A stretch of 32,656 nucleotides of DNA, taken from Pseudomonadota bacterium (GTDB taxonomy: Bacteria > Pseudomonadota > Gammaproteobacteria > Burkholderiales > Burkholderiaceae_D). This document shows positions 6,430-30,803 of the stretch, piece by piece. The stretch's first letter is position 1. Every line of letters begins with the position of its first letter. The stretch covers positions 1 through 32,656 of the forward strand of contig JARXKM010000007.1 of assembly GCA_030272785.1 (NCBI GenBank), read 5' to 3'. The notes under the pieces were generated by a model. The model was not told the DNA's origin. It did no database searches and saw nothing but the letters and a program-made list of their open reading frames with translations. The position numbers and the translations under genes are program-made.

Positions 6430-8280
6430 TCAGATCTCGAGGATGACGACGGCGCGCGCCGGCAGCGTCAGCGTGTTGGTCAGGTCGTACGTTGTGCCGG
6501 TGAGGGCGTCGACGCCGGACCTGGCGCCTTTGAGCATCTCCTGGAAGCGCAACGTCGGCAGGCTGACCGCGGTGGCGTTCTTGTTGTAGGCGACCATGAC
6601 CGTCTTCTTGTCGCCGTAGCGGAAGTAGACCCAGGTATCGTTCTCGGGACCGAACTGCATCATCTTCCCGTGATGGATCACCGGCTGCGTCTTGCGCCAG
6701 TTGACCAGTTTGCTGACGAAGGCCTGCGCGTCGCGCTGCTTGCTGGTCAGCCCGGCCCCAGTGAAGGCGTTGACCTTGTCGCCGGCCCAGCCACCCGGGA
6801 AGTCGTGCCGGTAGCTGGCGTCGTCGCGGCCCTTGAAGGTGCTGGTCATCAGCACTTCGGTGCCGGTGTAGAACTGCGGGATGCGCGGCAAGGTCATGGT
6901 AAACACGAGCGCCATCTTGTACAGGTCGACGTCCTCGCCGAGCACGCTGAACATGCGCGGCACGTCGTGGTTACCTTCGAACAGGACCAGGTTGGCCGCA
7001 TCCGGATACAGGCGGTCCTGCGACAGCATTTCGTAGACGTCCTTGAAGCCGTCCTTGTCGTCCTTTTCGGCCAGGCCGGCGCGCATCGCATACATCATCG
7101 GGAAGTCCATCATGCTCGGCAGCGAGCCGGTGAAGCCGTCGGCGCTGACGGCGCCGCGCTGCCAGTGCGCCACCACCGCCGGCGCCTTGTGCCACTCTTC
7201 GCCGACCATGTTCAGGCGCGGGTATTCGGCCACCACGCGGCGCGAGAATTCGGTCAGGAAATCGGCGTCCGAATAGCCGTAGGTGTCGATGCGCAGGCCG
7301 GAAAGGTGGGCGTATTCGATCCACCAGATATTGTTCTGGATGAGGAAATTGGCCACCATTGGATTGGCCTGGTTCAGGTCGGGCATCTCGCTGGTGAACC
7401 AGCCGTGGGTGAAATTGAGCTTGTCGGCCTGGGAGCCGTACGTGTCCATGGTCGACATCCGGTGGTGCACGGTCGGTACGAATTTGCCTTCGTGGTTGGT
7501 CCAGTCGGGCGTCGGCATGTCCTTCATCCACCAGTGGCCGAGGCCAATGTGGGACAGCACGACGTCGTGGATCAAGCCGATGCCGTGCTTGCGCGCTTCG
7601 GCCGACAGGCGTACGTAGTCCTGGTTGCTGCCGTAACGCGGATCGATCTTGTAGTGGTCGGTGGCCGCATAGCCGTGGTATGAATAGTTGGGCATGTCGT
7701 TTTCCAGCAGGGGCGTCGGCCACAGCTGGGTGAAGCCCATCGCGGCGATGTAGCCGAGATGGTCGATGATGCCGGCGATGTCGCCGCCGTGGCGGCCCGA
7801 CCCGCTGGCGCGATCGAGCTTGTCGGCCATGCCCGCCACGCTGTCGTTGGCGGCGCTGCCGTTGGCGAAGCGGTCCGGCATCACCTGGTAGATCGCGTCG
7901 CTGCTGTTAAAGCTCACCCGCTGCGCCGAGCCGGGCTCACGCGCGAGCAGCTGGTAGGTGTATTTCACGGCGCTGGCGGCGTTGCGGAAGGTGATGTCGA
8001 ACTTGCCCGGCGCCGCCTGCTCGCTGACTGCCAGGTCGATGAACAGGTAGTTGCGGTTCGCCACCCGCGTGACGGCGTCGATGCGCACGCCCGGATAGGC
8101 GATCACGGGTTCGAGCTCGGCGATGTGCTGCCCGTGCACCATCAGCTGCAGCTTCTGGTGCTTCATGCCGGCCCACCAGAACGGCGGTTCGAGATGGTCG
8201 ATGCGGTAGTCCTGCGCCTGGCCTGCCGCAGTGGCGAGCAAGGCGATGGCGACGAATGCGGCGGCGAAGATTTTCTTCAT
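6430..8280 (-). CDS. Exported GH13 alpha-amylase, cyclomaltodextrinase/neopullulanase (SusA-like)
   Basis: The product is 616 residues with a signal peptide (cleavage near AGQA-QD, residue 22). Residues about 24-115 match the Ig-like N-terminal domain of cyclomaltodextrinases (HLEPPFWWAGM...LQLMVHG). The GH13 barrel follows, with the nucleophile Asp332 in GLRIDTYGY, the general acid Glu361 in MVGEEW, and His438-Asp439 in FEGNHDV. A beta-sandwich C-domain ends the protein. Conserved region I reads DVVLSHIG; the Asn normally found before His is Ser243 here. The family cleaves alpha-1,4 bonds of cyclodextrins, pullulan and short maltodextrins, here most likely in the periplasm. The start is supported by AGAGA three bases before the ATG. 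The gene begins 24 bases after the ABC ATPase stop, in the same operon. Confidence 0.9.
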   Translation of the reverse strand: MKKIFAAAFVAIALLATAAGQAQDYRIDHLEPPFWWAGMKHQKLQLMVHGQHIAELEPVIAYPGVRIDAVTRVANRNYLFIDLAVSEQAAPGKFDITFRNAASAVKYTYQLLAREPGSAQRVSFNSSDAIYQVMPDRFANGSAANDSVAGMADKLDRASGSGRHGGDIAGIIDHLGYIAAMGFTQLWPTPLLENDMPNYSYHGYAATDHYKIDPRYGSNQDYVRLSAEARKHGIGLIHDVVLSHIGLGHWWMKDMPTPDWTNHEGKFVPTVHHRMSTMDTYGSQADKLNFTHGWFTSEMPDLNQANPMVANFLIQNNIWWIEYAHLSGLRIDTYGYSDADFLTEFSRRVVAEYPRLNMVGEEWHKAPAVVAHWQRGAVSADGFTGSLPSMMDFPMMYAMRAGLAEKDDKDGFKDVYEMLSQDRLYPDAANLVLFEGNHDVPRMFSVLGEDVDLYKMALVFTMTLPRIPQFYTGTEVLMTSTFKGRDDASYRHDFPGGWAGDKVNAFTGAGLTSKQRDAQAFVSKLVNWRKTQPVIHHGKMMQFGPENDTWVYFRYGDKKTVMVAYNKNATAVSLPTLRFQEMLKGARSGVDALTGTTYDLTNTLTLPARAVVILEI

Positions 8281-8292
8281 CTGTCTCTTTGG

Positions 8293-8316
8293 TTAGGCGA
8301 TGCGTTAGGCGATGCG
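8293..8316. repeat. 12-bp exact tandem duplication spanning the ABC ATPase stop codon
   Basis: The 12-mer TTAGGCGATGCG occurs twice in immediate succession. Read on the minus strand, it duplicates the last three codons plus stop of the ATPase gene (Arg-Ile-Ala-stop), so the copy lies just after the true stop and is also in frame. It places a second in-frame TAA behind the first. It looks like a replication-slippage product; a function as a safety stop is possible but unproven. Confidence 0.9.
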
Positions 8317-9414
8317 TTGCTCGGTGGCGGGGTCGAACAGCACCGCCTTGGAAAGGTCGAAGGCGAGGGTGAGCGGCTGGCCGGCGACGGCAGCGGCGCG
8401 CGGGTGGGTGCGGCAGGTGATGCGCACGCCGTTGACGACGGTGAACACCAAGGTATCGGGGCCGGTCGGCTCGATCATCTGGACGACGCAGTCGACCGTG
8501 GTGGGCTGGTAGGCGCCAGCGCGGGCGCCGGCGCGGGCGCTGTCGGCGTCGGTGATGTGTTCGGGCCGGATGCCGAGGATGACATCGGCGCCGCGCGCCA
8601 GCGCCGCCAGCTCCGGCGGCAGCGGCAGCACGGTGGTGGCGCCGCCATGCTCGAGCGCGAAGCCGCCGGCGTCGATGCGCCCGCGCAGGAAGTTCATCGA
8701 CGGCGAGCCGATGAAGCTGGCGACGAACAGGTTGTCGGGCCGGTCGTAGATCTGCTGCGGGGTGCCGAACTGCTGCACCACGCCGTCCTTCATGACGGCG
8801 ATCTTGTCGCCCAGGGTCATCGCCTCGATCTGGTCGTGAGTGACGTAGACGATGGTGCTGCCGAGACGCTGGTGCAGCAGCTTGATTTCGGCGCGCATCT
8901 CGACGCGCAGCTTGGCGTCGAGGTTCGACAGCGGTTCGTCGAACAGGAACAGGGCCGGGTCGCGGGCGATCGCGCGGCCCATGGCGACGCGCTGGCGCTG
9001 GCCGCCCGACAGCATGGCCGGCTTGCGGTCGAGCAGGTGGGTCATCTGCAGCGTGTCGGCGACCCGCTCGACGATTTTTTTCTGTTCGTTTTTCGGCACC
9101 TTGCGGATGCCGAGGCCGAACGAGATGTTTTCGCGCACCGTCATGGTCGGGTACAGCGCGTACGACTGGAACACCATCGCGATGTCGCGCGACTTGGGCG
9201 GCACGTCGTTGACGACCTTGCCGCCGATGGCGATCTGGCCGGCGCTGACGGTCTCCAGCCCGGCGATCATGTTCAGCAGGGTAGACTTGCCGCAGCCGGA
9301 ACCGCCCACCAGGATCAGGAATTCGCCGTCGGCGATGTCGAGGTCGATGCCTTTGAGGACCTCGGCGCCATTCGGGTAGACCTTGCGTACGCCGCGGATC
9401 GATAAACTCGCCAT
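8305..9414 (-). CDS. Sugar ABC transporter ATP-binding protein (MalK/UgpC/GtsD type)
   Basis: The 369-residue ATPase starts at MASLSIRG; the ORF track adds 82 upstream codons that overlap the permease gene and are not real. All nucleotide-binding motifs are present: Walker A GGSGCGKST (37-45), Q-loop Gln83, signature LSGGQ (135-139), Walker B LFLFDE (155-160) and switch His193. Residues about 240-369 form the MOI/TOBE regulatory domain typical of MalK/UgpC proteins, containing FIGSPSMNFL and GIRPEHI. It powers import through the two permeases encoded just upstream; only two bases separate the permease stop from this ATG. MalK-type TOBE domains often respond to regulators of sugar uptake, but nothing here shows a partner. 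The exact substrate is set by the binding protein, so a specific symbol is not assigned. Confidence 0.93.
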   Translation of the reverse strand: MASLSIRGVRKVYPNGAEVLKGIDLDIADGEFLILVGGSGCGKSTLLNMIAGLETVSAGQIAIGGKVVNDVPPKSRDIAMVFQSYALYPTMTVRENISFGLGIRKVPKNEQKKIVERVADTLQMTHLLDRKPAMLSGGQRQRVAMGRAIARDPALFLFDEPLSNLDAKLRVEMRAEIKLLHQRLGSTIVYVTHDQIEAMTLGDKIAVMKDGVVQQFGTPQQIYDRPDNLFVASFIGSPSMNFLRGRIDAGGFALEHGGATTVLPLPPELAALARGADVILGIRPEHITDADSARAGARAGAYQPTTVDCVVQMIEPTGPDTLVFTVVNGVRITCRTHPRAAAVAGQPLTLAFDLSKAVLFDPATEQRIA

Positions 9415-9416
9415 TG

Positions 9417-10274
9417 CTAACCTTTCACCGCGCCGGCGGTCAGGCCGCGCACGAAGTATTTTCCCGCCACCAGGTACAGTGCCAGGGTCGGCAGCGCGGC
9501 GATGATCGCCGCCGCCATGTCGACGTTGTATTCCTTGACGCCGGTCGAGGTGTTGACCAGGTTGTTGAGCGCGACCGTCACCGGCTGCGCATCGGAGCCG
9601 CCGAACACCACGCCGAACAGGAAGTCGTTCCAGATCTGGGTGAACTGCCAGATGAAGCACACCATGAAGATCGGCAGCGACAGCGGGAAGATGATCTTCC
9701 GGTAGATCAGGAAGAAGCCGGCGCCGTCGATGCGGGCCGCCTTGATCAGCTCTTCGGGCACCGTCACGTAGTAATTACGGAAGAACATGGTGGTGAACGC
9801 CAGGCCGTAGACGATGTGGACGAACACCAGGCCGGTGGTGGTGTTGGCGATGTCGGCGATGCCGAGCAGGCGCGCCATCGGCAGGATCACCACCTGGAAC
9901 GGGATGAAGCAGCCGACCATCAGCGTGGTGAACAAGATTTCGGAACCGCGAAAGCGCCAGTGCGCCAGCACGTAGCCGTTGAGGGAGCCGATCAGGGTCG
10001 AGATCAGCACCGCAGGGATGGCCATGCGCAGCGAGTTGAAGAAGTACGGCGCCAGACCTTCGCAGGCGGCGCCGGTGCAGGCGCTGCCCCAGGCCTTGGC
10101 CCAGGCGGCGCCCGACAGCGAGGACGGCAGGTCGAGCAGGTCGCCGCTGCGGATCTGCTCGAGCGACTTGAACGAGGTGGCCAGCATCACGTACAGCGGC
10201 ACCAGGTAGTACAGCGCGCACAGTACCAGCAGCAGGTAGACGGCGGCGCGGCCGAAAGGGAACTTAGCGGCCAT
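9417..10274 (-). CDS. Carbohydrate ABC transporter permease (MalG family, GtsC-like)
   Basis: The 285-residue inner-membrane protein has about six transmembrane segments and the permease-ATPase contact (EAA) motif EELIKAARIDGAG around residues 174-186. The C-terminal stretch NDFLFGVVFGGSDAQPVTVA and the final RGLTAGAVKG closely resemble, from memory, GtsC of the Pseudomonas glucose/mannose transporter rather than enteric MalG. It pairs with the upstream permease, and its first 11 bases overlap that gene's end. The short periplasmic loop contains two cysteines (66 and 71) that could form a disulfide. Role: half of the translocation pore for a sugar, probably glucose or a short glucan fragment. 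Confidence 0.9.
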   Translation of the reverse strand: MAAKFPFGRAAVYLLLVLCALYYLVPLYVMLATSFKSLEQIRSGDLLDLPSSLSGAAWAKAWGSACTGAACEGLAPYFFNSLRMAIPAVLISTLIGSLNGYVLAHWRFRGSEILFTTLMVGCFIPFQVVILPMARLLGIADIANTTTGLVFVHIVYGLAFTTMFFRNYYVTVPEELIKAARIDGAGFFLIYRKIIFPLSLPIFMVCFIWQFTQIWNDFLFGVVFGGSDAQPVTVALNNLVNTSTGVKEYNVDMAAAIIAALPTLALYLVAGKYFVRGLTAGAVKG

Positions 10275-11166
10275 GGCGGGTGCCCCGGGTTTCGAGGTAC
10301 ATCATCGGCACCAGCACGGCCATGATGGTGGCGAGCATCATCATCGCCGAGGCGGCGCCGAGCCCGAGCTGGCCGCGCGAGAACGCATACTGGTACATGA
10401 ACACGGCCGGCACGGTCGACGAGGTGCCGGGGCCGCCGGCGGTGAGCGCCATCACCAGGTCGAAGCTCTTGATGGCGATGTGTGCCAGGATCAGGAACAC
10501 GCTGAAGAAGACCGGCCGCAGCGACGGGATGACGATGCGGCGGTAGATGGTCGGCAGCGAGGCGCCGTCGACCTGGGCGGCCTTGATGATGCTGTCGTCG
10601 ATGCCGCGCAGGCCGGCCAGGAACAGCGCCATGACGAAGCCGGACGACTGCCACACGCCGGCGATGACGACGGTGTAGATCGCCATGTCGGGGTTGATCA
10701 GCCAGTCGAAGGTGAAATTGGGGAAGCCCCAGCCGCGCACCATTTTTTCCAGTCCCAGTCCGGGGTTGAGTATCCATTTCCAGGCCGCGCCGGTGACGAT
10801 GAACGACAGCGCCATTGGGTACAGGTAGACGGCGCGCAGCGCGCCTTCCATGCGGATTTTCTGGTCGAGGAAGATCGCCATCAGCAGGCCGACGGCCAGG
10901 CAGATGACGACGAACAGCACGCCGAAGATGGCCAGGTTGTTGGCGGCGACCCACCAGCGGTCAAGATCGAACAGCGCTATATATTGGACAAAGCCGGCGT
11001 ACTCGAAGTTCGGCATCATGCGCGATTCGGTCAGCGACAGGAAGCCGGTGACGGCGATGAAGCCGTAGACGAACACCAGCGAGGCGATCACGGTGGGCGC
11101 CAGCACGAGGCGCGGCAGCCAGCGGTCGGCGAGGGCGGACAGCGCCATGGGCGGAATTGACGCCAC
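10264..11166 (-). CDS. Carbohydrate ABC transporter permease (MalF/UgpA family, GtsB-like)
   Basis: The product is 300 residues with about six transmembrane helices and the EAA contact loop DSIIKAAQVDGASLPTIYRR at residues 191-210. It forms the second half of the translocation pore with the downstream permease. The chosen start is the GTG that follows the binding-protein TAA with no spacing. An in-frame ATG six codons later (MALSALADRW) is equally plausible, because neither start has a clear Shine-Dalgarno sequence. Translation therefore probably depends on ribosomes finishing the binding-protein gene. It lacks the long periplasmic P2 loop of E. coli MalF, fitting the Gts/Ugp-type subfamily. 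Confidence 0.9.
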   Translation of the reverse strand: MASIPPMALSALADRWLPRLVLAPTVIASLVFVYGFIAVTGFLSLTESRMMPNFEYAGFVQYIALFDLDRWWVAANNLAIFGVLFVVICLAVGLLMAIFLDQKIRMEGALRAVYLYPMALSFIVTGAAWKWILNPGLGLEKMVRGWGFPNFTFDWLINPDMAIYTVVIAGVWQSSGFVMALFLAGLRGIDDSIIKAAQVDGASLPTIYRRIVIPSLRPVFFSVFLILAHIAIKSFDLVMALTAGGPGTSSTVPAVFMYQYAFSRGQLGLGAASAMMMLATIMAVLVPMMYLETRGTRHGR

Positions 11167-12420
11167 TTAGCGGGTCTTGGCGGCTTTGGCCAGCGCGGCC
11201 ACGGCGTCTTTCGACGTCATGGACGAATTCATGAACCGGGCGACGACGTCCATGATGGCGCCCTGCGCCGCGGAGCCGACCGCCATGTTGTGGGCCAGGC
11301 TGGGGACGAAGGCGCCGGCCTTGCTGCTCGCCTCGAGGTCGGCCATCGATTGCTGCGCGCAGCTGTCGAATTTCGCTTTCGGGACGCCGGCACGGACCGG
11401 GATCGAACCCTTGTTCAGGTTGAACACTTCCTGGAAGGCGGGACTCATGATGGCGCTGGCGAGCACCAGCTGCGATTTCTGGTCGTCCGGCTTCTTCTGC
11501 TTGAACATCAACATCGAGTCGATATTGAAGGTGAAGGCCTTGGCGGTGCCGGGCGCGGCGACGCACAGGAAATCGGTGCCGGGCTGCTTGCCGGCGGCGG
11601 TGAATTCGCCCTTGGCCCAGTCGCCCATGAACTGCATGCCGGCCTTGCCGTTGATGACCATGGCGGTGGCCAGGTTCCAGTCGCGCCCTGCGCTGTCGCG
11701 GTCGATATAGGTCTTGATGCGGGCCAGCGTGTCGAACGTCTTGACCATCAGCGGGCCGGTCAGGCTGGCCTGGTCGAGCTGGACCAGCGCCTTTTTATAG
11801 AACTCGGCGCCGCCCACGCCCAGCGCGACCGATTCGAAGATGGTCGTATCCTGCCATGGCTGGCCGCCGTGGGCGACGGCGACCAGGCCGGCTGCCTTGA
11901 TCTTGTCGGCGGCGGCGAAAAATTCGTCGAAGGTGGCCGGCGCCTTGGCAACGCCGGCCTTCTTCAGTACCGCCGGATTGACCCACAGCCAGTTCACGCG
12001 GTGCACATTGACCGGCGCGGCGACGTAGTGGCCCTTGTATTTCATGATGGTCACGACCGCCGGCGGCAGCAGGGTGTCCCATTTTTCGGCCAGCGCCACC
12101 GCGTCGATGTCGGCCAGTACGCCTTCCTGGCCCCATTCCTGGATGGCCGGGCCCTTGACCTGGGCGGCGGTCGGCGCGCCACCCGAGATCACGCGCGCCT
12201 TGAGCGCGGTGGCGGCGTTCTCGCCGGCGCCGCCGGCGACCGCGAAGTCCTTCCAGGCGACGCCCTTGGCGGCCAGCGTCTTCTTCAGTTCGGCCACCGA
12301 ACGGGCCTCGCCGCCCGACGTCCAGTAGTGCAGCACCTCCACCTGGGCGGCGTGGCCGGCGCCGCAGAACAGGGAAAGGACGGCGGCGGCGAGCAGTGTG
12401 CGGGCAAGGTGGCGATGCAT
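11167..12420 (-). CDS. Periplasmic sugar-binding protein of an ABC transporter (family 1, GtsA-like)
   Basis: The product is 417 residues from the ATG preceded by GGAG at good spacing (GGAGACACCATG); the ORF track's longer version adds 52 codons from the control region. The signal peptide is cleaved near GHA-AQ (about residue 24). The mature start VEVLHYWTSGGEARSVAELKK, followed by a conserved VAGGAGENA and PTAAQVKGPAIQEWGQEG, is typical of glucose/mannose-binding proteins such as Pseudomonas GtsA (recalled similarity). It is the first gene of the eight-gene operon and hence probably the most expressed. Substrate is inferred as glucose or a short alpha-glucan product released by the periplasmic hydrolases of the same operon; maltose cannot be excluded. 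Confidence 0.9.
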   Translation of the reverse strand: MHRHLARTLLAAAVLSLFCGAGHAAQVEVLHYWTSGGEARSVAELKKTLAAKGVAWKDFAVAGGAGENAATALKARVISGGAPTAAQVKGPAIQEWGQEGVLADIDAVALAEKWDTLLPPAVVTIMKYKGHYVAAPVNVHRVNWLWVNPAVLKKAGVAKAPATFDEFFAAADKIKAAGLVAVAHGGQPWQDTTIFESVALGVGGAEFYKKALVQLDQASLTGPLMVKTFDTLARIKTYIDRDSAGRDWNLATAMVINGKAGMQFMGDWAKGEFTAAGKQPGTDFLCVAAPGTAKAFTFNIDSMLMFKQKKPDDQKSQLVLASAIMSPAFQEVFNLNKGSIPVRAGVPKAKFDSCAQQSMADLEASSKAGAFVPSLAHNMAVGSAAQGAIMDVVARFMNSSMTSKDAVAALAKAAKTR

Positions 12421-12465
12421 GGTGTCTCCATAAGGTGGCGAGCTGATTATGTTGGCGTCGGATTT

Positions 12466-12480
12466 CGTAGTTCTGCTACA
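12466..12480. promoter_or_regulatory. Candidate operator 1 (CGTAG-N5-CTACA)
   Basis: The 15-mer CGTAGTTCTGCTACA has 4 of 5 arm pairs of the shared palindrome TGTAG-N5-CTACA. It lies about 46 bases upstream of the binding-protein ATG, downstream of the predicted leftward promoter, where a bound repressor could block elongation. Alternatively it overlaps the -35 position of a weaker promoter whose -10 would be CATAAT (12446-12451, minus strand). Confidence 0.5.
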
Positions 12481-12538
12481 TCGCGTCATCGACGCGCAGC
12501 AGGGGCAAATCCGTCGCCACTGAGCTTCTTCACCTAAA

Positions 12539-12567
12539 AGCATACTATAGAAGCATGGGCATATCAA
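12539..12567 (-). promoter_or_regulatory. Candidate sigma-70 promoter of the ABC transporter/amylase operon
   Basis: On the minus strand TTGATA (12567-12562) is followed after exactly 17 bases by TATGCT (12544-12539). Both hexamers are close to consensus (5/6 and 4/6). Transcription would start near 12532, giving a leader of roughly 110 bases that contains candidate operator 1. Confidence 0.5.
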
Positions 12568-12720
12568 TTGATTCACGCGATCGCGGGTGGCATGAATAGC
12601 TAGTTTAAGTACATATTGCCGCTTGGTCGTCAGGCCGCAGCGTCACCGCGCCGGCCGTGCTGGCGTTTCCTTGCACCAACATAGTGCTGCTTGCGTCGAA
12701 ATAGTGAAAATTTGCGTAAA

Positions 12721-12838: not shown

Positions 12839-12866
12839 TTGACAGTGCATCTAGTTTTAATACAAA
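12839..12866 (+). promoter_or_regulatory. Candidate sigma-70 promoter of the TonB-dependent receptor
   Basis: A perfect TTGACA (12839-12844) is followed after 16 bases by TACAAA (12861-12866), matching TATAAT at 4 of 6. Transcription would begin near 12873, leaving about 100 bases of untranslated leader before the receptor ATG. The surrounding sequence is AT-rich relative to the window. Confidence 0.55.
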
Positions 12867-12971
12867 ATCTTGAGCAGAACGTCTTAGAACGTTTGCTTCG
12901 GGATCCCGGCTTAAAAGCTTTCCGGCTGTAGTCGCGGGACAAATGCGTTATTTAATGAATTGAGGGGACAC

Positions 12972-15725
12972 ATGAAAGTTTTCGCGAACAAGCAGTCGAA
13001 CGGTAAGCTCCGCCAGCGTACGGCATTCCCACTGCGCCCGGTGGCCGCCGGTTGCATGCTGTTGCTGTCGGCAATGGCGGTCAATGCGAGCGCCCAGGAA
13101 GTGGTGCCGGCGCCGGCCCAGAGCACGGCGATCGGCAACGGCGCCGAGCCGGCCGTTCAAAGCGTGGTGGTGTCCGGTATTCGCCGCGGCATCGAAGCGG
13201 CGATTTCAGTCAAGCGCAATTCGACCTCGATCGTGGAAGCCATTTCCGCCGAAGACATCGGCAAACTGCCGGATTCGAGCATCGCCGAATCGATCGCGCG
13301 CCTGCCAGGCCTGACCGCGCAAAACGTCGGCGGCCGTGCCGTCAACGTCAGCATCCGCGGCATGTCGGGCGACTTCTCGACCTCGCTGCTGAACGGCCGC
13401 GAGCAGGTCAGCACGGGCGACAACCGCAGCGTCGAATTCGACCAGTACCCGTCCGAGCTGCTGTCCGGCGTGGTGGTCTACAAGACCCCGGATTCCGCGC
13501 TGGTCGGCCAAGGCCTGTCCGGCACGGTCGATCTGCAGACGGTGCGTCCGCTGGCGTTCGGCCGCCGCACCGTGGCGGTCAACGCGCGCTCCGAGCGCGA
13601 CGGCCAGGGCACCAATTTCAAGGGTACGGGCAAGCGCTTCAGCGCCTCGTACATCGACCAGTTCGCCGACCGCACCATCGGCGTGGCGATCGGCGCGACC
13701 CGCTTCACGTCGGACCTGACCACGGCCAACGCCGAGAACTACGACGTCTACACCGGCAGCACCAATTACAACGGCCAGGATGTCAAGGTCGTCAACGGCT
13801 TCAAGCTGTTCAACAACACCAGCAAGAAGAGCCGCGACGGTGTGATGGCCGTGCTGGAATACCGTCCGAGCAAGGAATTCCACTCGCAGCTCGACCTGTT
13901 CTACTCGAAATTCGACGATGAAGTGATCCACCGCGGCCTCGAGCTGCAGGTCAACGACAGCTGGAAGACCGGCAACGGCGATCCATTCGTCGCCTCGCAG
14001 GCGCCGGTGCTGGCGCCTGGCGCGGTGATCTCCGGCGGCAAGCTCGTCAGCGGTACCTGGCTGGGCGTCAATCCGCTGTCGCGCCACATCTACGACCCGA
14101 CCAAGGACGAGCTGAGCTCGATCGGCTGGAACAACGAACTGCGCTTCGGCGACCAGTGGACCGCCACCGTCGACGTCAGCCAGTCGCGCGCCACCCGCAA
14201 GGAATCGATCTCGGAACTCGAAGCCGGCGTGGTCGGCCCGAACGGCCGTCCGCTGTCGGAAGCGGTGGGCGTAATCAACGGCAACACCATCGGATCGCTG
14301 CAGTACAACCACGGCGACGCGTCGCTGATCAAGCTGACCGATCCCGAGTCGTGGGGCCAGAACGGCTACACCAAGTCGATCTCGGTCAAGGACACCATCA
14401 AGGCCGGCCGCCTCGGCTTCCAAAAGGGCATGGACGGCATGATCAGCAAGGTCACGTTCGGCGTCAACTACTCCGAGCGCGCCAAGGACAAGAGCGCCGA
14501 AGAAGCCAAGCTGGTCCTGAAAACGGCACCGGGCGCCTTGCCGGCCGGCGCCGGTTCGGTGCTGGTGGGCGGTTCGCAGTTCAGCAGCATTTCCTTCGAT
14601 CCGGCGGCAGTGTTCCCATCGTCGTACAACCTGATCAAGAACGTCAACGGCGACATCCTGCTGAAGGACTGGAACGTGACGGAGAAGGTGTCGACGGCCT
14701 ACGTCAAAGGCGACCTCGACACCAAGGTCGGCGGCTTCGACCTGCGCGGCAATATCGGCGTGCAGATGGTCCGCACCGACCAGGCATCGACGGCGCCACA
14801 GGTGGACAACGCCAAGCAGGACGTGGTCGCGCTGCACACCGCCGGCAAGTCCTACACCGACTTCCTGCCAAGCATGAACCTGGTGTTCGACCTCGGCAAC
14901 GACCAGGCGCTGCGCTTCGGCCTGGCCAAGGTGCTGGCGCGGGCCCGCATGGACCAGTTGAGCGCGGCGCGCCGTTCGGAAATCGATGCCACCACGCACG
15001 TCTGGACCGGTAGCGGCGGCAACCCGCTGCTCGACCCGTTCCGCGCCAAGGCAGTCGACGTGTCGTACGAGAAGTACTTCGGCACCAAGGCTTACATCAG
15101 CGCCGCGGCGTTCTACAAGAAGCTCGACAGCTACATTTTCGACTTCAACGACAACGCCTACTCGTTCGCCGGCTTCCCGAACGTCACCGGCCGCACGTCG
15201 AGCACGATGATCGGCAAGTTCACCCAGCCGCGCAACGGCAACGGCGGCAGCATCAAGGGCGTCGAACTGGCGGCGTCGATGCCGTTCAGCGTGGTCTCGG
15301 ACATGCTCGACGGCTTCGGCATGCAGGCGAACTTCTCGCACAACGACAGCGCCATCAACCCGTTCGGCGATGCCGATGCGCGGCCGTTGCCTGGCCTGTC
15401 CAAGCAAGTGGCGAGCCTGACGTTCTACTACGAGAAGTTCGGCTTCTCGGCCCGCGTGGCAGCCCGTCATCGTTCCGACTTCCTCGGTGAAGTGCAAGGC
15501 TTCGGCGCGGCGCGCGAGTACCAGTACGTCAAGGGCAACACGGTCGCCGACCTGCAGCTCGGTTACGAGTTCCAGTCGGGCATGGCCAAGGGCGTGACGG
15601 TGCTGGTGCAGGTGCTCAACGCCAACAAGGCGCTCGAGCAGCAGTACCAGGCGTCGACCGGCACCATCACCAAGACGGACGACTTCGGCCGTACCATCCT
15701 GATCGGCGCGAACTACAAGTTCTAA
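12972..15725 (+). CDS. TonB-dependent outer-membrane receptor (TIGR01782-type, MalA-like), probable maltodextrin uptake
   Basis: The 917-residue protein starts at the ATG behind GAGGGG with 5-base spacing; the ORF track's TTG start four codons earlier is less likely. The signal peptide ends near NASA-QE (residue 41). A probable TonB box is at VQSVVVSGIRRG (62-73). The plug domain covers about 75-200 with the typical ISAEDIGKLPDSSIAESIARLPG and VSIRGMSGDFSTSLLNGRE. The rest is a 22-strand barrel ending in ILIGANYKF, a normal outer-membrane assembly terminus with final Phe. Caulobacter and Xanthomonas members of this class carry maltose or other sugars; the substrate here is inferred from the flanking amylases. 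No SusD-like partner is present. Expression is probably controlled by the divergent region with operators 2 and 3. Confidence 0.93.
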   Translation: MKVFANKQSNGKLRQRTAFPLRPVAAGCMLLLSAMAVNASAQEVVPAPAQSTAIGNGAEPAVQSVVVSGIRRGIEAAISVKRNSTSIVEAISAEDIGKLPDSSIAESIARLPGLTAQNVGGRAVNVSIRGMSGDFSTSLLNGREQVSTGDNRSVEFDQYPSELLSGVVVYKTPDSALVGQGLSGTVDLQTVRPLAFGRRTVAVNARSERDGQGTNFKGTGKRFSASYIDQFADRTIGVAIGATRFTSDLTTANAENYDVYTGSTNYNGQDVKVVNGFKLFNNTSKKSRDGVMAVLEYRPSKEFHSQLDLFYSKFDDEVIHRGLELQVNDSWKTGNGDPFVASQAPVLAPGAVISGGKLVSGTWLGVNPLSRHIYDPTKDELSSIGWNNELRFGDQWTATVDVSQSRATRKESISELEAGVVGPNGRPLSEAVGVINGNTIGSLQYNHGDASLIKLTDPESWGQNGYTKSISVKDTIKAGRLGFQKGMDGMISKVTFGVNYSERAKDKSAEEAKLVLKTAPGALPAGAGSVLVGGSQFSSISFDPAAVFPSSYNLIKNVNGDILLKDWNVTEKVSTAYVKGDLDTKVGGFDLRGNIGVQMVRTDQASTAPQVDNAKQDVVALHTAGKSYTDFLPSMNLVFDLGNDQALRFGLAKVLARARMDQLSAARRSEIDATTHVWTGSGGNPLLDPFRAKAVDVSYEKYFGTKAYISAAAFYKKLDSYIFDFNDNAYSFAGFPNVTGRTSSTMIGKFTQPRNGNGGSIKGVELAASMPFSVVSDMLDGFGMQANFSHNDSAINPFGDADARPLPGLSKQVASLTFYYEKFGFSARVAARHRSDFLGEVQGFGAAREYQYVKGNTVADLQLGYEFQSGMAKGVTVLVQVLNANKALEQQYQASTGTITKTDDFGRTILIGANYKF

Positions 15726-15823: not shown

Positions 15824-17338
15824 ATGTCGTTTCCCCATATCCGCAACATCGTCATCGTCGGCGGCGGCACCGCCGGCTGGATGACCGCCGCCGCCCTGTC
15901 CAAGGTGCTGACCGGCAACTGGACCATCCGCCTGATCGAATCCGAGGAAATCGGCACCGTCGGGGTGGGCGAGGCCACCATCCCGCTGATCAACGTCTAC
16001 AACCGTGCGCTTGGCATCGACGAAGACGAGTTCATGCGCGCCACCAACGGCACCTTCAAGCTGGGCATCGAGTTCGTCAACTGGGGCAAGCTGGGCGACT
16101 CCTATATGCACGGCTTCGGCAACCTCGGCCCGGACATCGGCATCACCAAATTCCACCAGTACTGGCTCAAGGCCCAGCAGGACGGCTACGCACTGGACAT
16201 CGAAAACTATTCGATCTGCTCGCTCGCCTCGCGCCATGCCAAGTTCATGCGCGCGCGCCCGGACCTGGGCAATTCGCCGCTCAGCGAGATCGCCCACGCC
16301 TTCCATTTCGACGCCAACCTGTACGCCGCCTTCCTGCGCAAGTACGCCGAGCAGCGCGGCGTGATCCGCATCGAGGGCAAGGTCAGCGGCGCCACCACGC
16401 GCCCGGCCGACGGCTTCATCGAGGCGGTGGTGATGGACAACGGCGAGCGCATCGAGGGCGACCTGTTCATCGACTGCTCCGGCTTTCGCGGCCTGCTGAT
16501 CGAACAGACGCTGCATGCCGGCTACGACGACTGGAGCCACTGGCTGCCGTGCGACCGCGCCTGGGCGGTGCCGTGCGAATCGAGCGGCCCGCTGCTGCCG
16601 TACACGCGCTCGACCGCGCGCGACGCCGGCTGGCAATGGCGCATTCCGCTGCAAAACCGCATCGGCAACGGCCACGTCTACAGCAGCAAATTCAGCGACG
16701 ACGCCAGCGCCGCCGACATCCTGATGCGCAACCTGGACGGCAAGGCGCTGGCCGAGCCGCGCCAGCTCAAGTTCGTCACCGGCCGGCGCAAGAAATTCTG
16801 GGACAAGAACTGCGTGGCGATCGGCCTGTCGAGCGGGTTCATGGAGCCGCTCGAGTCGACCAGCATCCACCTGATCCAGGCCAGCATCGCGCGCCTGACG
16901 ACGTTCTTCCCGGACCAGGGGTTCGAGCAGGCCGACATCGACGAATTCAACCGCCAGGCGCATTTCGAAGTCGAGAAGATCCGCGACTTCCTGATCCTGC
17001 ACTACAAGGCGACCAGCCGCACCGATACCGACTTCTGGAACTACTGCCGCACCATGGAGATCCCGGAGTCGCTGCGCAACAAGATGGCGCTCTACGAGAG
17101 CAATGGCCGGCTGTTTCGCGAGGCCAGCGAGATGTTCTCGGAGATCAGCTGGTTCGAGGTGATGCACGGACAGGGCATCAAGCCGCGCGGCTACCATCCG
17201 CTGGTCGATGCGCTGGCCGACGGCAAGATCCGCAGCTTCCTCGAGAACGTCAGCACCACCACCCAGCGCTGCGTCGAGGCGATGCCGAGCCATGCCGACT
17301 TCGTGCGCGAGAATTGCGCGGCGCCGCAGTCGAAGTAG
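15824..17338 (+). CDS. Flavin-dependent tryptophan-halogenase-family protein (FADH2-dependent)
   Basis: The product is 504 residues. The FAD-binding motif is GGGTAGW (13-19), followed by GVGEATIP (47-54). The halogenase signature WxWxIP appears as WQWRIP (270-275). The lysine that carries the hypohalous acid equivalent in PrnA/RebH is present at the same number (Lys79, in GTFKLGIEF). The partner glutamate is Glu344 in FMEPLESTSI. All residues needed for halogenation are therefore retained. No signal peptide is seen, so it is cytoplasmic. The Shine-Dalgarno sequence is weak and a terminator lies upstream, suggesting low expression. Related proteins (BrvH, Xanthomonas B100 halogenases) brominate indoles, but their natural substrate is unresolved. 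No flavin reductase or natural-product genes are in the window. Confidence 0.9.
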   Translation: MSFPHIRNIVIVGGGTAGWMTAAALSKVLTGNWTIRLIESEEIGTVGVGEATIPLINVYNRALGIDEDEFMRATNGTFKLGIEFVNWGKLGDSYMHGFGNLGPDIGITKFHQYWLKAQQDGYALDIENYSICSLASRHAKFMRARPDLGNSPLSEIAHAFHFDANLYAAFLRKYAEQRGVIRIEGKVSGATTRPADGFIEAVVMDNGERIEGDLFIDCSGFRGLLIEQTLHAGYDDWSHWLPCDRAWAVPCESSGPLLPYTRSTARDAGWQWRIPLQNRIGNGHVYSSKFSDDASAADILMRNLDGKALAEPRQLKFVTGRRKKFWDKNCVAIGLSSGFMEPLESTSIHLIQASIARLTTFFPDQGFEQADIDEFNRQAHFEVEKIRDFLILHYKATSRTDTDFWNYCRTMEIPESLRNKMALYESNGRLFREASEMFSEISWFEVMHGQGIKPRGYHPLVDALADGKIRSFLENVSTTTQRCVEAMPSHADFVRENCAAPQSK

Positions 17339-17341
17339 GCG

Positions 17342-18049
17342 ATGTTCAATCCGCGTGCGCGCATCAGCGAGGTGCCGATCGGCGACGGCCAGTCGTGCAT
17401 CGTGGTCGACGACTGCATGCTTGACCCGCGGGCGCTGCGCGCGCTGGCGATCGAGCACGCCGCCGGCTTCGACGCGGCGCCGCGCAATGCCTTCCCCGGC
17501 CTCGAGCTGCCGATGCCGGCGGCGTTTTCCGGCCTGCTCGACGAGTTCTTCATGCAGCACGTGCGGCGCCGGCTGGGCGCGCGCCGCACGCTCGACGTGC
17601 ACAGCCGCCTGTCGCTGGTGACCTTGCCGGGCGCGCAGCTGCGGCCGCTGCAGCGCGTCTGCCATCGCGACCGCTTCGGCGTCGCCGCCGACCAGCTGGC
17701 CGCCGCCTGCGTGCTGTACCTGTTCGACCAGCCGGCGCTGGGCGGCACCAGTTTCTTCCGGCCGCGCCAGTCGGCGGCGCAGACCAACGACATGATGCGC
17801 ACGCTGGGCGGCATGGATACGGCCGCGGCCAGCGCCATGCTCGGCGCCGAACCTGGCTACCTGTTGGCGTCGAACGCCTGGTTCGAGCTGGTGCACACCG
17901 TGCCGGCGGCATGGAACCGCGCCATCTTCTACGACGGCAGCATTTTCCACTCCAGCCACGTCGGCGCGCCCGAGCTGCTGAGCGCCGATCCGGCGCGCGG
18001 CCGCCTCACCCTCAACGGCTTTTTTGTCTGTCGCCGGCAGGCCGGCTGA
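17342..18049 (+). CDS. DUF6445-family-like protein, possible Fe(II)/2-oxoglutarate-type dioxygenase fold
   Basis: The 235-residue protein begins three bases after the halogenase stop. From memory, its layout matches the DUF6445 family: CIVVDDCMLDPRAL near the start, FPGLELPMP (51-59), RLSLVTLPGAQLRPLQR (89-105), then CHRDRFGV (107-114), VLYLFDQPALGGTSFFRP (124-141) and WNRAIFYDGSIFHSSHV (191-207). The HxD pair His108/Asp110, a distal His203 or His206, and Arg221 in RGRLTLNGFF are arranged like the facial triad and co-substrate arginine of 2-oxoglutarate oxygenases. Catalysis is inference; no biochemical role is established to my knowledge. Members are commonly seen next to TonB receptors and tryptophan halogenases. 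No signal peptide is visible. Confidence 0.75.
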   Translation: MFNPRARISEVPIGDGQSCIVVDDCMLDPRALRALAIEHAAGFDAAPRNAFPGLELPMPAAFSGLLDEFFMQHVRRRLGARRTLDVHSRLSLVTLPGAQLRPLQRVCHRDRFGVAADQLAAACVLYLFDQPALGGTSFFRPRQSAAQTNDMMRTLGGMDTAAASAMLGAEPGYLLASNAWFELVHTVPAAWNRAIFYDGSIFHSSHVGAPELLSADPARGRLTLNGFFVCRRQAG

Positions 18050-18081: not shown

Positions 18082-20052
18082 ATGCCATCAATCCGTCTAC
18101 GCCTTGCCGCCAGCCTGTTTACCGGCGCGTTTGCCACGTTGGCCGTTTGCGTCGCCGCGCAGGCCGCGGCGCCGGCGCTGGAGCAGTTTTTCCGCACGCC
18201 GGCGATCCGCATCGCCAGCCTGTCGCCGAACGGGCGCTACCTGGCGTCAACGGCGATGCTGGGCGGCTCGGTTCAGCTCACCGTGGTCGACCTGCAGACG
18301 CGCGAAGCGAAAAAGATCGCCGGCTATGCCGATGTCGACATCTTCCGGATCGAGTGGATCAGCAACGATCGGCTGGCGTTCAACGTCATCGATCGCACCA
18401 GCGAACAGAATGCGTCGTACAGCGGCCTGTTCGCCATCGACCGCGACGGCACCCGCGAGCGCGCCTTGTCGGCGATGCCGGCCGCGCTGATGCTGCGCGC
18501 GCGCCAGTCGTTCAACGACGTCGCCGCCGAGCCGGTGGCGTACGACCTGGTGCAGCCGCTGCACGACGGCTCGGCCGGCATCATCGCGCTCGGCTACTTC
18601 ATCAACGGCGACATCGTGCCGTACCGGATCGACAGCGTCAGCGGGCGGCGCAAGGCGATCGACTTCAGCGTGACCGGCCGGGCGCACGACTTCGTGTTCG
18701 ATGCCGCGAACCGCTTGCGGGTGGTGACCGCCTACATGGACAGCGAAGGCGCCAGGTCGGCCGTCTGGTACCGCGACGACGAGGCGCAGCCTTGGCGCAA
18801 GCTGGCCGAGCATGCCACCCTGAACCCGCCATTTCGCGCCATCGGCATCGATCCGGACGGCTTGCTGGTGGTCGCCGGCGTGCATGGCCGCGATGGCGTG
18901 TTCCGCTACAACATGGCTGACAACAAGGTCGGCGCGCTGGTCGCCGCCAGCGCCGACGCGGACGTCAACGACGGCCTGGTGTTCGATCCGCAGACCCACA
19001 AGCTGATCGGCGTGCGGGTGCGCTCCGAGCCGCCGCACACCGAGTGGCTCGACCCGCAGTACGCGGCGCTCCAGCAGGGCCTCGACCAGGCCGCGCCGGA
19101 CATGGTCAGCCAGGTCACGCCGGGCGGCGACGCCGCGTCGCCGCGCCTGGTGTTCAGCTCGTCGTCGACCGATCCGGGGCGCTACCTGCGCTACGACCCG
19201 GCCACCAAGCAGCTGCTGCCGCTGCTGACCCGGATGCCGTGGATCGTGCCGGCGCAGATGTCGCCCAAGCTGGTGTTCGACTACAAGGCGCGCGACGGCC
19301 TGCCGATTCCATCCTACCTGACCTTGCCCAAGGGCCGCCCGGTCAACCGGCTGCCGCTGATCGTGCTGCCGCACGGCGGTCCGGCCGCGCGCGACGATGC
19401 CAGTTTCGACCCGCAGGTGCAGTTTCTGGCCAGCCGCGGCTACGCCGTGCTGCAGCCGCAGTTCCGCGGCTCGACCGGTTTTGGCGAGGCCCACTTCCGC
19501 AAAGGCTTTCGCCAATGGGGCCTGCGCATGCAGGACGACCTGAGCGACGGCATCGCCGACCTGGTAAAGCAAGGCGCGGTCGACCCGGCGCGCGTATGCA
19601 TCATGGGCGCCAGCTACGGCGGCTACGCGGCGGCGATGGGCCTGGTGAAGGATCCGCAGCAGTACCGCTGCGGCATCGACCTGCTCGGCGTGACCGACAT
19701 CGGCTACCTGTTTACCATCGGCCGATGGGAGGGCAACAAGGTGGTCGCCTTCCATTCGAAAATCACCATCGGCGACCCGGGCCAGATGCGCGACCAGTTT
19801 GTGGCGACGTCGCCGGCGCTGCAGGCGGCCAGCATCCGCGCGCCGCTGTTCATGGCCTACGGCGAGCACGATACGCGCGTGCCGCTGGTGCATGGCGAAG
19901 ACCTGCGCGACGCGCTCAAGAAGCACGGCAAGGTCTACGAGTGGATGACTTTTCCGGACGAGGAGCACGGTTTTACCATCGAAGCGAACCGCTTCCGGCT
20001 GTACCGCGCGATCGACGCGTTCCTGGCAAAGTACAATCCGGCCGGCGCCTGA
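18082..20052 (+). CDS. Exported S9-family prolyl oligopeptidase (dipeptidyl aminopeptidase/acylaminoacyl-peptidase-like)
   Basis: The product is 656 residues from MPSIRLRLAASLF, chosen because it gives a good signal peptide (cleavage near AAQA-AA, residue 29); the ORF track starts 57 codons earlier inside the DUF6445 gene. Residues about 35-390 form a WD/TolB-like beta-propeller. The peptidase domain covers about 400-656, with the nucleophile Ser511 in GASYGG, Asp597 in YGEHDTRVP and His629 in EEHGF. The family cleaves short peptides. It follows DUF6445 after 32 bases and probably shares its transcript. The start has no strong ribosome site. What peptide it acts on in a sugar locus is unknown. 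Confidence 0.88.
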   Translation: MPSIRLRLAASLFTGAFATLAVCVAAQAAAPALEQFFRTPAIRIASLSPNGRYLASTAMLGGSVQLTVVDLQTREAKKIAGYADVDIFRIEWISNDRLAFNVIDRTSEQNASYSGLFAIDRDGTRERALSAMPAALMLRARQSFNDVAAEPVAYDLVQPLHDGSAGIIALGYFINGDIVPYRIDSVSGRRKAIDFSVTGRAHDFVFDAANRLRVVTAYMDSEGARSAVWYRDDEAQPWRKLAEHATLNPPFRAIGIDPDGLLVVAGVHGRDGVFRYNMADNKVGALVAASADADVNDGLVFDPQTHKLIGVRVRSEPPHTEWLDPQYAALQQGLDQAAPDMVSQVTPGGDAASPRLVFSSSSTDPGRYLRYDPATKQLLPLLTRMPWIVPAQMSPKLVFDYKARDGLPIPSYLTLPKGRPVNRLPLIVLPHGGPAARDDASFDPQVQFLASRGYAVLQPQFRGSTGFGEAHFRKGFRQWGLRMQDDLSDGIADLVKQGAVDPARVCIMGASYGGYAAAMGLVKDPQQYRCGIDLLGVTDIGYLFTIGRWEGNKVVAFHSKITIGDPGQMRDQFVATSPALQAASIRAPLFMAYGEHDTRVPLVHGEDLRDALKKHGKVYEWMTFPDEEHGFTIEANRFRLYRAIDAFLAKYNPAGA

Positions 20053-25265: not shown

Positions 25266-27695
25266 ATGAGAGCAGCATTCACCACCTTGTACCTGCTCTC
25301 GCTGGCCTGCTTGTCGGTCCAGGCGGCGGCACAGGCGCAGCCCGTGCGACCGGTCGGCAACGTGCAGTCGGTGCAGGTCGACGGCCAGCAGGTGCGCCTG
25401 CAAACCGACAATGCCAGTGTCGAACTGACCGTCTACAGCGCCTCGGTGATCCGCGTGCGCATCGACAAGCAGAAGCTGGGGCGCGACTTTTCGTATGCGG
25501 TCGTCGCCACGCCGCAAGCGGCCCGTACCAGCGTCACACAGGACGCCACGGCGCTGACGCTGTCGACCGATGCGCTCACCGCGCGCGTGACCAAGCAGCC
25601 ATTCTCCATCACCTTCGCCACGCCGGACGGAAAAATCATCAACCAGGACGAGCCGGGCCTGGCGACGTCGTGGATCGGCGAGGAAGTGGCAACCTACAAG
25701 ACGCTGCAGCAGGGCGAGCGCTTCGTCGGCCTCGGCGAAAAGACCGGCAACCTCGATCGCCGCGGCAGCGCCTACACCAACTGGAACACCGACGCGTTCC
25801 GTTACGGCGCCGCCAGCGATCCGCTGTACGCGTCGGTGCCGTTCTATGTCGGCATCCACCACGGCCTCAGTTACGGCATCTTCTTCGACAACAGCTATCG
25901 CAGCGATTTCAATTTCGGCGCCAGCAACAACCGCTTCTCGTCGTTCTCGGCGCAGGGCGGCGAGATGAACTACTACTTCATTTACCATCCGCGCCTGGCC
26001 GACATCATCGGTTCGTACACCGCGCTGACCGGGCGCATGCCGCTGCCGCCGCTGTGGAGCCTGGGCTACCAGCAGAACCGCTACAGCTACTACCCGGAAG
26101 CGGAAGTGCTGCGCATCGCCCACACGCTGCGCGAGAAGAAGATCCCGGCCGACGGCATCACGCTCGATATCCACTACATGGACGCCTACAAGCTGTTCAC
26201 GTGGGACAAGGCGCGCTTCCCCGACCCGGCCGGCATGACCGCCAAACTGGCCGCGCTCGGCCTGAAGACGACCGTCATCGTCGACCCCGGCATCAAGGTC
26301 GAGAAGGGTTACGGCGCCTACCAACGCGGCCTGCGCGACGATGTCTTCATCAAGTATCCGGACGGTGCCAACTACACCGGCGAAGTGTGGCCGGGCTGGT
26401 GCAATTTCCCCGATTTCACCAGCGAGAAGGGCCGCGCCTGGTGGCGCCAGGAAGTGCGCACCTTCGCCGCGGCCGGCGTGTCCGGCCTGTGGAACGACAT
26501 GAACGAGATCGCCACCTGGGGCCAGCAGATGCCGAACAACGTGCTGTTCGATTTCGACGGCGCGCCGACCACCCACAAGCAGGCCCACAACGTCTATGCG
26601 CTGCAGATGGCGCGCGCCAGCTACGAAGGCATGAAGGCGGCCACCGGCAAGCGCCCGTTCATGCTCACGCGCGCCGGCTTCGCGGGGCTGCAGCGCTACT
26701 CGGCCATCTGGACCGGCGACAACCGCGCCGAGGAGGACCACATGCTGCTCGGCGTGCGCCTGCTGAACAGCCTCGGGCTGTCCGGCGTGCCGTTCACCGG
26801 CATGGACGTCGGCGGCTTCACCGGCGCGCCGACCCAGTCGCTGTTCGCGCGCTGGATGCAGATCGGCGCGTTCACGCCGTACTTCCGCAATCACGCCGCC
26901 AGCGACACCAGGTCGTCCGAACCGTGGACCTACGGCGACGAGGTGCTCGACATCTCGCGCAACTACGTCAACCTGCGCTATCGGCTGATGCCCTACCTGT
27001 ATTCGGCCTTCGCCGAGGCGGCGGCGACCGGCGCGCCGGTGATGCGCTCGCTGGCGATCGACTACACGCACGATCCGCAAATCTACGCGCCGGCGTTCCA
27101 GAACCAGTACCTGTTCGGCGGCGCCTTGCTGGTGGCGCCGTTCGAGAGCACGCGCGACTTCGGCAAGGTGTATTTTCCGGCCGGGCAGTGGTACGACCTG
27201 GCCACCGATGCGATCGAGCAGGGCGCGCGCGAAAAGATCATCGAACTGCGCGCGGCGACCTTGCCGGTGTACGTCAAGGCGGGCAGCGTGGTGCCGGTGC
27301 AGTCGCTGGTGCAGTCGACCGCGGAACGGCCGGCCGCTACCTTGGCGCTGCACATCTACAAGGGCGATGCGGCCACCGTCACCGCCTATTATGAAGACGA
27401 CGGCGCCAGCTTCGCCTACCAGGGCGGCGCCTACTACCGGCGCAGCATCGCCTACGACGGCGCGGCGCGCCGCATCACGCTCGGCGCCGTCGAGGGCAGC
27501 TTCCAGTCGAAGTTCGACAAGCTCGAACTGGTGCTGCACGGTTTCGGCGCCGCGGCCAGCGCGCAGCTGAACGGCACGCCGCTGCGGCTGGCGGCCGGCA
27601 CGCATGGTTTTCTCGGTGCCGGCAGCGCCGATCAGGTTAAAGTAAGCACCACCACGATCAACAACGACGGCGGCCAGCTCGTCATCAGCTATTGA
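25266..27695 (+). CDS. Exported GH31 alpha-glucosidase
   Basis: The product is 809 residues with a signal peptide (cleavage near AAAQA-QP, about residue 24). An N-terminal galactose-mutarotase-like domain precedes the GH31 barrel (about 255-600). The nucleophile is Asp411 in GLWNDMNEIA and the acid/base is Asp485 in IWTGDNRA. A DUF5110-like beta-sandwich ends the protein. The family removes terminal non-reducing alpha-glucose; here it would act on maltodextrins in the periplasm. A Cys at position 15 does not form a convincing lipobox. The promoter and candidate operator 5 lie directly upstream. An 8-bp tandem repeat spans its stop codon. It is followed after 59 bases by the second MFS transporter, probably in one transcript. 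Confidence 0.92.
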   Translation: MRAAFTTLYLLSLACLSVQAAAQAQPVRPVGNVQSVQVDGQQVRLQTDNASVELTVYSASVIRVRIDKQKLGRDFSYAVVATPQAARTSVTQDATALTLSTDALTARVTKQPFSITFATPDGKIINQDEPGLATSWIGEEVATYKTLQQGERFVGLGEKTGNLDRRGSAYTNWNTDAFRYGAASDPLYASVPFYVGIHHGLSYGIFFDNSYRSDFNFGASNNRFSSFSAQGGEMNYYFIYHPRLADIIGSYTALTGRMPLPPLWSLGYQQNRYSYYPEAEVLRIAHTLREKKIPADGITLDIHYMDAYKLFTWDKARFPDPAGMTAKLAALGLKTTVIVDPGIKVEKGYGAYQRGLRDDVFIKYPDGANYTGEVWPGWCNFPDFTSEKGRAWWRQEVRTFAAAGVSGLWNDMNEIATWGQQMPNNVLFDFDGAPTTHKQAHNVYALQMARASYEGMKAATGKRPFMLTRAGFAGLQRYSAIWTGDNRAEEDHMLLGVRLLNSLGLSGVPFTGMDVGGFTGAPTQSLFARWMQIGAFTPYFRNHAASDTRSSEPWTYGDEVLDISRNYVNLRYRLMPYLYSAFAEAAATGAPVMRSLAIDYTHDPQIYAPAFQNQYLFGGALLVAPFESTRDFGKVYFPAGQWYDLATDAIEQGAREKIIELRAATLPVYVKAGSVVPVQSLVQSTAERPAATLALHIYKGDAATVTAYYEDDGASFAYQGGAYYRRSIAYDGAARRITLGAVEGSFQSKFDKLELVLHGFGAAASAQLNGTPLRLAAGTHGFLGAGSADQVKVSTTTINNDGGQLVISY

Positions 27696-27704
27696 ACTAT
27701 TGAA
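27689..27704. repeat. 8-bp tandem duplication spanning the GH31 stop codon
   Basis: CTATTGAA occurs twice in succession and contains the final Tyr codon and TGA of the GH31 gene. It resembles the 12-bp duplication at the ABC ATPase stop. The second copy is out of frame because the unit is 8 bases. Confidence 0.8.
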
Positions 27705-27710
27705 TTCCCA

Positions 27711-27730
27711 GTCCGGCAGCTAGTCCGGAC
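27711..27730 (+). other. Short intergenic hairpin between the GH31 and MFS genes
   Basis: GTCCGG (27711-27716) pairs with CCGGAC (27725-27730) around an 8-base loop. No T-run follows, so it is not a normal terminator. It may stabilise or mark processing of the upstream message, or be chance. Confidence 0.3.
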
Positions 27731-27754
27731 ACATAGAAGACCTCGGAGACACAG

Positions 27755-30803
<3,049 letters not shown>

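Follow-up and report, generated by a model that had tools for sequence, protein, structure and literature searches.

What a protein of the DUF6445 family does, and on which molecule it acts, is the question raised by a gene row in the window (the whole stretch of 32,656 nucleotides that was analysed, from a bacterium of the Burkholderiaceae_D). In this row the DUF6445 gene directly follows those of a TonB-dependent receptor and a flavin-dependent halogenase.

Genomic setting

Judged from the domains of its predicted proteins, the window is a maltodextrin/alpha-glucan utilization locus, with GH13 and GH31 enzymes, a MalK-type ABC importer and a phosphoglucomutase. These alpha-glucan genes lie at 6430-12576 on the minus strand and 25266-30803 on the plus strand. 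The plus strand carries, in order, the genes for the TonB-dependent receptor, the halogenase, the DUF6445 protein, an S9 hydrolase and a DEAD-box helicase (Table 1), and further on those for GH31, an MFS protein and phosphoglucomutase. Since sugar genes surround it, the receptor is likely to be a maltodextrin receptor. Only 3 bp separate the end of the halogenase gene from DUF6445, and the spacing of the genes suggests that receptor, halogenase and DUF6445 form one operon; a sigma-70-like site, matched to the consensus only, lies upstream of the receptor (12839-12868). In a sister species (L138) the receptor, halogenase, DUF6445 and DEAD-box genes are kept while the S9 gene is absent, and the S9 hydrolase was therefore rejected as a fixed partner. 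It was also considered as a lasso-peptide isopeptidase, but the match is weak (70 bits, cut-off 400) and was put down to the likeness of S9 enzymes in general.

Table 1. Predicted features of the window and of the DUF6445 gene.
Feature	Coordinates	Strand	Basis
Divergent maltodextrin genes: cyclomaltodextrinase, MalK-type ATPase, two permeases, solute-binding protein	6430..12576	-	Pfam
TonB-dependent receptor, TIGR01782 TonB-Xanth-Caul subfamily	12960..15725	+	TIGR01782, 590.2 bits, cut-off 310
Flavin-dependent halogenase, BrvH/Xcc4156 type	15824..17338	+	PF04820, 662.9 bits
DUF6445 protein, predicted P4H-like Fe(II)/2-oxoglutarate-dependent oxygenase, 235 aa	17342..18049	+	PF20043, AlphaFold2, PDB fold matches, hhalign
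H108-R109-D110 codons (H108 17663-17665, D110 17669-17671), predicted HxD ligands of Fe(II), in the stretch that links strand 80-93 to strand 118-126	17663..17671	+	137/137 for H and D; DSSP
G135-T136-S137-F138 codons, equivalent of the P4H GG.T.F motif	17744..17755	+	T136 137/137; hhalign pairing with GGaTvFP of P4H-like proteins
H203 codon, predicted distal Fe(II) ligand, within strand 202-206	17948..17950	+	137/137; DSSP
R221 codon, predicted to bind the carboxylate of 2-oxoglutarate, at the first position of strand 221-232	18002..18004	+	137/137; DSSP
S9 (prolyl oligopeptidase family) hydrolase, apparent signal sequence	18082..20052	+	PF00326, 139.7 bits

Family membership of the DUF6445 protein

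The reading frame starts with an ATG at 17342 and ends with the stop codon at 18047-18049. Its product matches the Pfam model PF20043 over the entire profile (positions 1-224 of 224; 238.8 bits, E 8.9e-71, curated cut-off 24). A signal peptide is not apparent by eye, and the protein is presumably cytoplasmic. One copy was found in the source genome, the completeness of which is estimated at 83%.

Direct searches say little about function. NCBIfam holds no family model for the protein, a literature search for DUF6445 by name found no paper, the single-sequence search of the PDB with the window protein gave no usable match, and the A1 profile search returned only chance-level matches to serine hydroxymethyltransferase. 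Single DUF6445 members match PF13640 (2OG-FeII_Oxy_3) and PF13759 weakly; the Pfam cut-off of PF13640 is not reached, the best family member having an E-value of 0.008 and the window protein no match. The protein is not filed under PF13640 because its score is below that cut-off: by sequence comparison it is prolyl-4-hydroxylase (P4H)-like, yet not a PF13640 member by the cut-off of that family itself. Many sampled genomes of the genus g217 carry a distant subfamily of DUF6445, which scores 57-67 bits and sits in long open frames of 422-588 aa (for example G541:C107:256217-256843 and G403:C80:252380-253003).

Invariant residues

An earlier note on this DNA had picked out CHRDR, FHSSH and GRLTLNGFF in the translated frame and read them as the HxD...H...R pattern of Fe(II)/2-oxoglutarate (2OG) oxygenases, with His108, Asp110 and His203 or His206 as metal ligands and Arg221 as the 2OG-binding residue. 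All three motifs are present as written. Three sources supplied the homologues: the phylum (399 genomes, 30 of them positive), the family (295 genomes, 78 of them positive) and named genomes (79 loci). Invariance was scored in 137 distinct, non-redundant sequences with a median pairwise identity of 34% and a minimum of 15%. Among about 225 columns five are fully invariant, each in 137/137 sequences: H108, D110, T136, H203 and R221. Four of these five are residues that the earlier note had named, a coincidence with a rough chance of about 5e-8 by simple counting, which ignores the above-average conservation of H, D and R.

Both ways of searching, by HMM and by a GGT-based pattern, favour conserved cores. 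The pattern by which loci L031-L109 were found, GGT[ASG]F[YF]R[HQ][RK], biases T136 and its neighbours, not H108, D110, H203 or R221, and the loci for which only the Pfam model was used (L002-L030, L110-L137) are just as invariant at these residues. The proposed roles of His108, Asp110 and Arg221 thus fall on residues that never vary, the roles themselves being predictions. Of the two candidates for the distal ligand, H206 was rejected: its column is variable (D in 22, C in 16 and V in 13 of the 137 sequences), and as H203 never varies, H203 is the predicted ligand.

In 18 of the 137 sequences, the window protein included, the residue preceding the metal His is Cys in place of Pro (CHxD). These 18 group together in the tree at a modest support of 0.58. 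Genomes of the family to which the window belongs account for 17 of them, and Duganella flavida, a member of the Oxalobacteraceae, for the other; judged by this grouping, the window may itself come from the Oxalobacteraceae.

Predicted fold and remote homology

The AlphaFold2 model of the protein, built from 21 aligned homologues, has a mean pLDDT of 93.1 and a pTM of 0.89. (For the Duganella homologue, folding from its sequence alone gave a pLDDT of 31 and was set aside.) As assigned by DSSP, strand 80-93 is followed by the HxD segment (108-110) and by strands 118-126, 135-141, 181-188, 193-198, 202-206 and 221-232. In the double-stranded beta-helix of 2OG oxygenases, the HxD motif is found at core strand II, the distal His on strand VII and the basic residue that binds 2OG on strand VIII. 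The strand order of the predicted model matches this arrangement, and its HxD, distal His and Arg lie on the strands where such residues would be expected.

At E <= 0.001, comparison of the model with the PDB by Foldseek gave 73 matches. Prolyl hydroxylases head the list, and each of the best 10 of the 73 is a 2OG oxygenase; among the best matches are the prolyl 4-hydroxylase of Phytophthora, the prolyl hydroxylase of P. putida (as a complex with EF-Tu), OGFOD1, EasH, TlxIJ and PHD2. Small-molecule oxygenases share the fold, and several are present among the matches. Because the TM-scores of the best matches are moderate (about 0.4-0.5), the branch of the superfamily is less certain than the class. 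Profile comparison with hhalign pairs DUF6445 with one P4H-like group of PF13640 at 83% probability (E 8.8e-6, an E-value for one pair and not for a database), with PHFD set opposite PHYD and GGTaF opposite GGaTvF. Two other PF13640 groups gave weak pairings (2-7%), and 14 unrelated controls (SapC, FecR, GntR, NagA, NagX, TonB, AroE, RNase II, halogenase and others) reached at most 1.6%.

The jelly-roll-type fold of the model, with prolyl hydroxylases leading the PDB matches, and the invariance of His108, Asp110, a distal His and Arg221 are the two points on which the earlier note had staked its reading, and both came out in its favour. Together with the profile homology they strongly support a Fe(II)/2OG oxygenase. 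We therefore predict, with a probability of about 0.88 that applies to the enzyme class and not to the target, that the DUF6445 protein is a Fe(II)/2OG-dependent oxygenase of the prolyl-4-hydroxylase-like branch. In the proposed mechanism, H108, D110 and H203 would hold Fe(II) and R221 would anchor 2OG; O2 would be activated to Fe(IV)=O and the substrate hydroxylated, with conversion of 2OG to succinate.

The neighbouring halogenase

The solved structures nearest to the window halogenase are Xcc4156 (6y1w, 547 bits), 9luq and BrvH (6frl, 500 bits), with tryptophan halogenases at 307 bits or less. It keeps the FAD motif GGGTAG (GxGxxG), the catalytic Lys and Glu (K79 and E344) and WQWRIP (WxWxIP), and by these sequence features is assigned to the open-site BrvH/Xcc4156 type. 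BrvH and Xcc4156 have an open substrate site, for which larger or peptide substrates have been suggested, and indole is probably not the natural substrate of BrvH; the two papers make no mention of TonB (PMC5945002, PMC7336383). A more distant flavoprotein, QhpG, hydroxylates peptidyl tryptophan (PMC7876137); the window halogenase matches the QhpG model weakly, at 25 bits against a cut-off of 240.

Recurrence of the gene row

Within about 10 kb of DUF6445 in the 79 named loci, a TonB receptor was found in 51, a halogenase in 43, SapC in 25 and Cupin_8 in 18. At least one of the four is present in 57 loci, and none in the other 22 by local profiles, which miss some receptors (for example in L109). 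The GC-rich loci were scored by six-frame profile searches, naive ORF calling being noisy there. The sugar genes near the row vary: they are of the GlcNAc type (NagA, SIS, GntR, kinase, NagX) in Pelomonas, Undibacterium and relatives, and of the maltodextrin type in the window. In a clade that includes Duganella flavida the order is RNase II-DUF6445-tonB-aroE, with no adjoining halogenase (L031:7968-12509; L141; L149). The source genome itself holds two further receptor-halogenase rows without DUF6445, L178 (G000:C241:1-14000) and L180 (G000:C408:9000-22439), one of which reads receptor-halogenase-SapC-Cupin_8-halogenase. The literature search for halogenases with TonB receptors, SapC or cupin found nothing on these cassettes.

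The earlier note had further proposed that the DUF6445 protein and the halogenase are a pair of oxidative enzymes that work one after the other or share a substrate. In part this agrees with the data. Nearly half of the nearby halogenase ORFs (30/62) lie on the same strand less than 1 kb from DUF6445, and a strong halogenase is present in 35 of the 39 family genomes with a strong DUF6445 match against 63 of the 256 others (Fisher p 4e-15, from genome lists compiled by hand and ignoring relatedness). Against a close pairing stand the 36 of 79 loci in which no halogenase was found within about 10 kb, the RNase II-DUF6445-tonB-aroE clade, and four relatives, each listed as at least 98% complete, that have DUF6445 and no strong halogenase (G593, G613, G642, G677). 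Because of these four genomes, an obligate two-step pair is not supported. Distances between DUF6445 proteins correlate with those between receptors (r 0.75, n 57, or 0.62 if only the 43 loci that carry receptor, halogenase and DUF6445 are counted) and with those between halogenases (r 0.46, n 43), all of these values being confounded by species relatedness. As the distances track the receptors better, and some DUF6445 genomes carry no strong halogenase, the steady partner of DUF6445 looks like the receptor, with the halogenase a common but optional one.

Possible substrates

If the protein is an oxygenase, its target may tentatively be placed in the uptake machinery: a polypeptide, either the receptor or TonB, modified before export, rather than the sugar. 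Such a target is the most economical since the cassette is constant while the sugar genes change, and it is in keeping with the position of DUF6445 next to tonB in some genomes and with the several protein hydroxylases among the nearest folds.

About equally likely, and no less tentative, is a small-molecule substrate, such as an aromatic compound, imported or secreted, on which the halogenase acts as well. The adjacency and genome co-occurrence of the two genes given above speak for such a shared substrate, and many of the fold matches act on small molecules; but there are DUF6445 loci and genomes without a strong halogenase, the sugar genes differ among loci, no NRPS or PKS domain was matched in Pfam scans of the window ORFs, and the receptor-halogenase rows L178 and L180 of the same genome lack DUF6445.

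Prolyl hydroxylases such as PHD2 act as sensors, and the DUF6445 protein could likewise bind Fe(II) and 2OG to report oxygen, iron or 2OG status to sugar uptake through a hydroxylated regulator. PHD2 is among the fold matches and DUF6445 is placed in nutrient-uptake loci, but no transcription factor was found beside it in the window and the nearby regulators differ from locus to locus (GntR, sigma/FecR), so that we regard a sensor as unlikely. That the HxD...H...R pattern is coincidental and DUF6445 has another fold or function is highly improbable, for although Pfam gives no function and the single-sequence PDB search was empty, the 137/137 invariance, the confident model and the fold and profile matches argue against it.

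Returning to the oxygenase with a target in the uptake machinery, a wider proposal is that DUF6445, the open-site halogenase and Cupin_8 make up an interchangeable kit for the modification of TonB-dependent receptors or TonB, in which residues of the uptake machinery would be hydroxylated and halogenated in the cytoplasm before export. We consider this rather doubtful; if true, it would supply a natural substrate for the BrvH/Xcc4156-type halogenases. The question of that substrate becomes testable here, by gene deletion and peptide mass spectrometry. The enzyme class is already well known, and the new part is the functional assignment of DUF6445: a family of unknown function, present in 30 of the 399 phylum genomes sampled, gains a testable enzyme class and is now tied to TonB-receptor/halogenase cassettes. 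That the cassette stays constant between maltodextrin loci and GlcNAc loci points to the uptake machinery.

Comparison with known systems

Two kinds of protein from the gene rows themselves can be set beside DUF6445. The BrvH/Xcc4156 halogenases are the nearest type to the neighbouring halogenase and belong to a different enzyme class from DUF6445. Cupin_8 (PF13621) is another oxygenase-like protein of the same receptor-halogenase-SapC rows. Its L042 member shows HxD and, further on, a His when inspected by eye, but Cupin_8 has no profile similarity to DUF6445 (1-2% by hhalign). Compared with DUF6445 (PF20043) at large, the window protein is a full-length member that belongs to the CHxD clade, a clade with a longer loop after the metal His.

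The closest known systems are the prolyl-4-hydroxylase-like oxygenases (PF13640; 4iw3, P. putida with EF-Tu; 6iuq, Phytophthora; PHD2; OGFOD1). DUF6445 differs from them in having no significant single-sequence similarity and in scoring below the PF13640 cut-off, and classical P4Hs carry Lys where DUF6445 has Arg as the predicted 2OG binder. Common to both, according to the model and the alignments, are the strand order, the HxD...H triad, the GG.T.F motif and a basic residue on the last strand.
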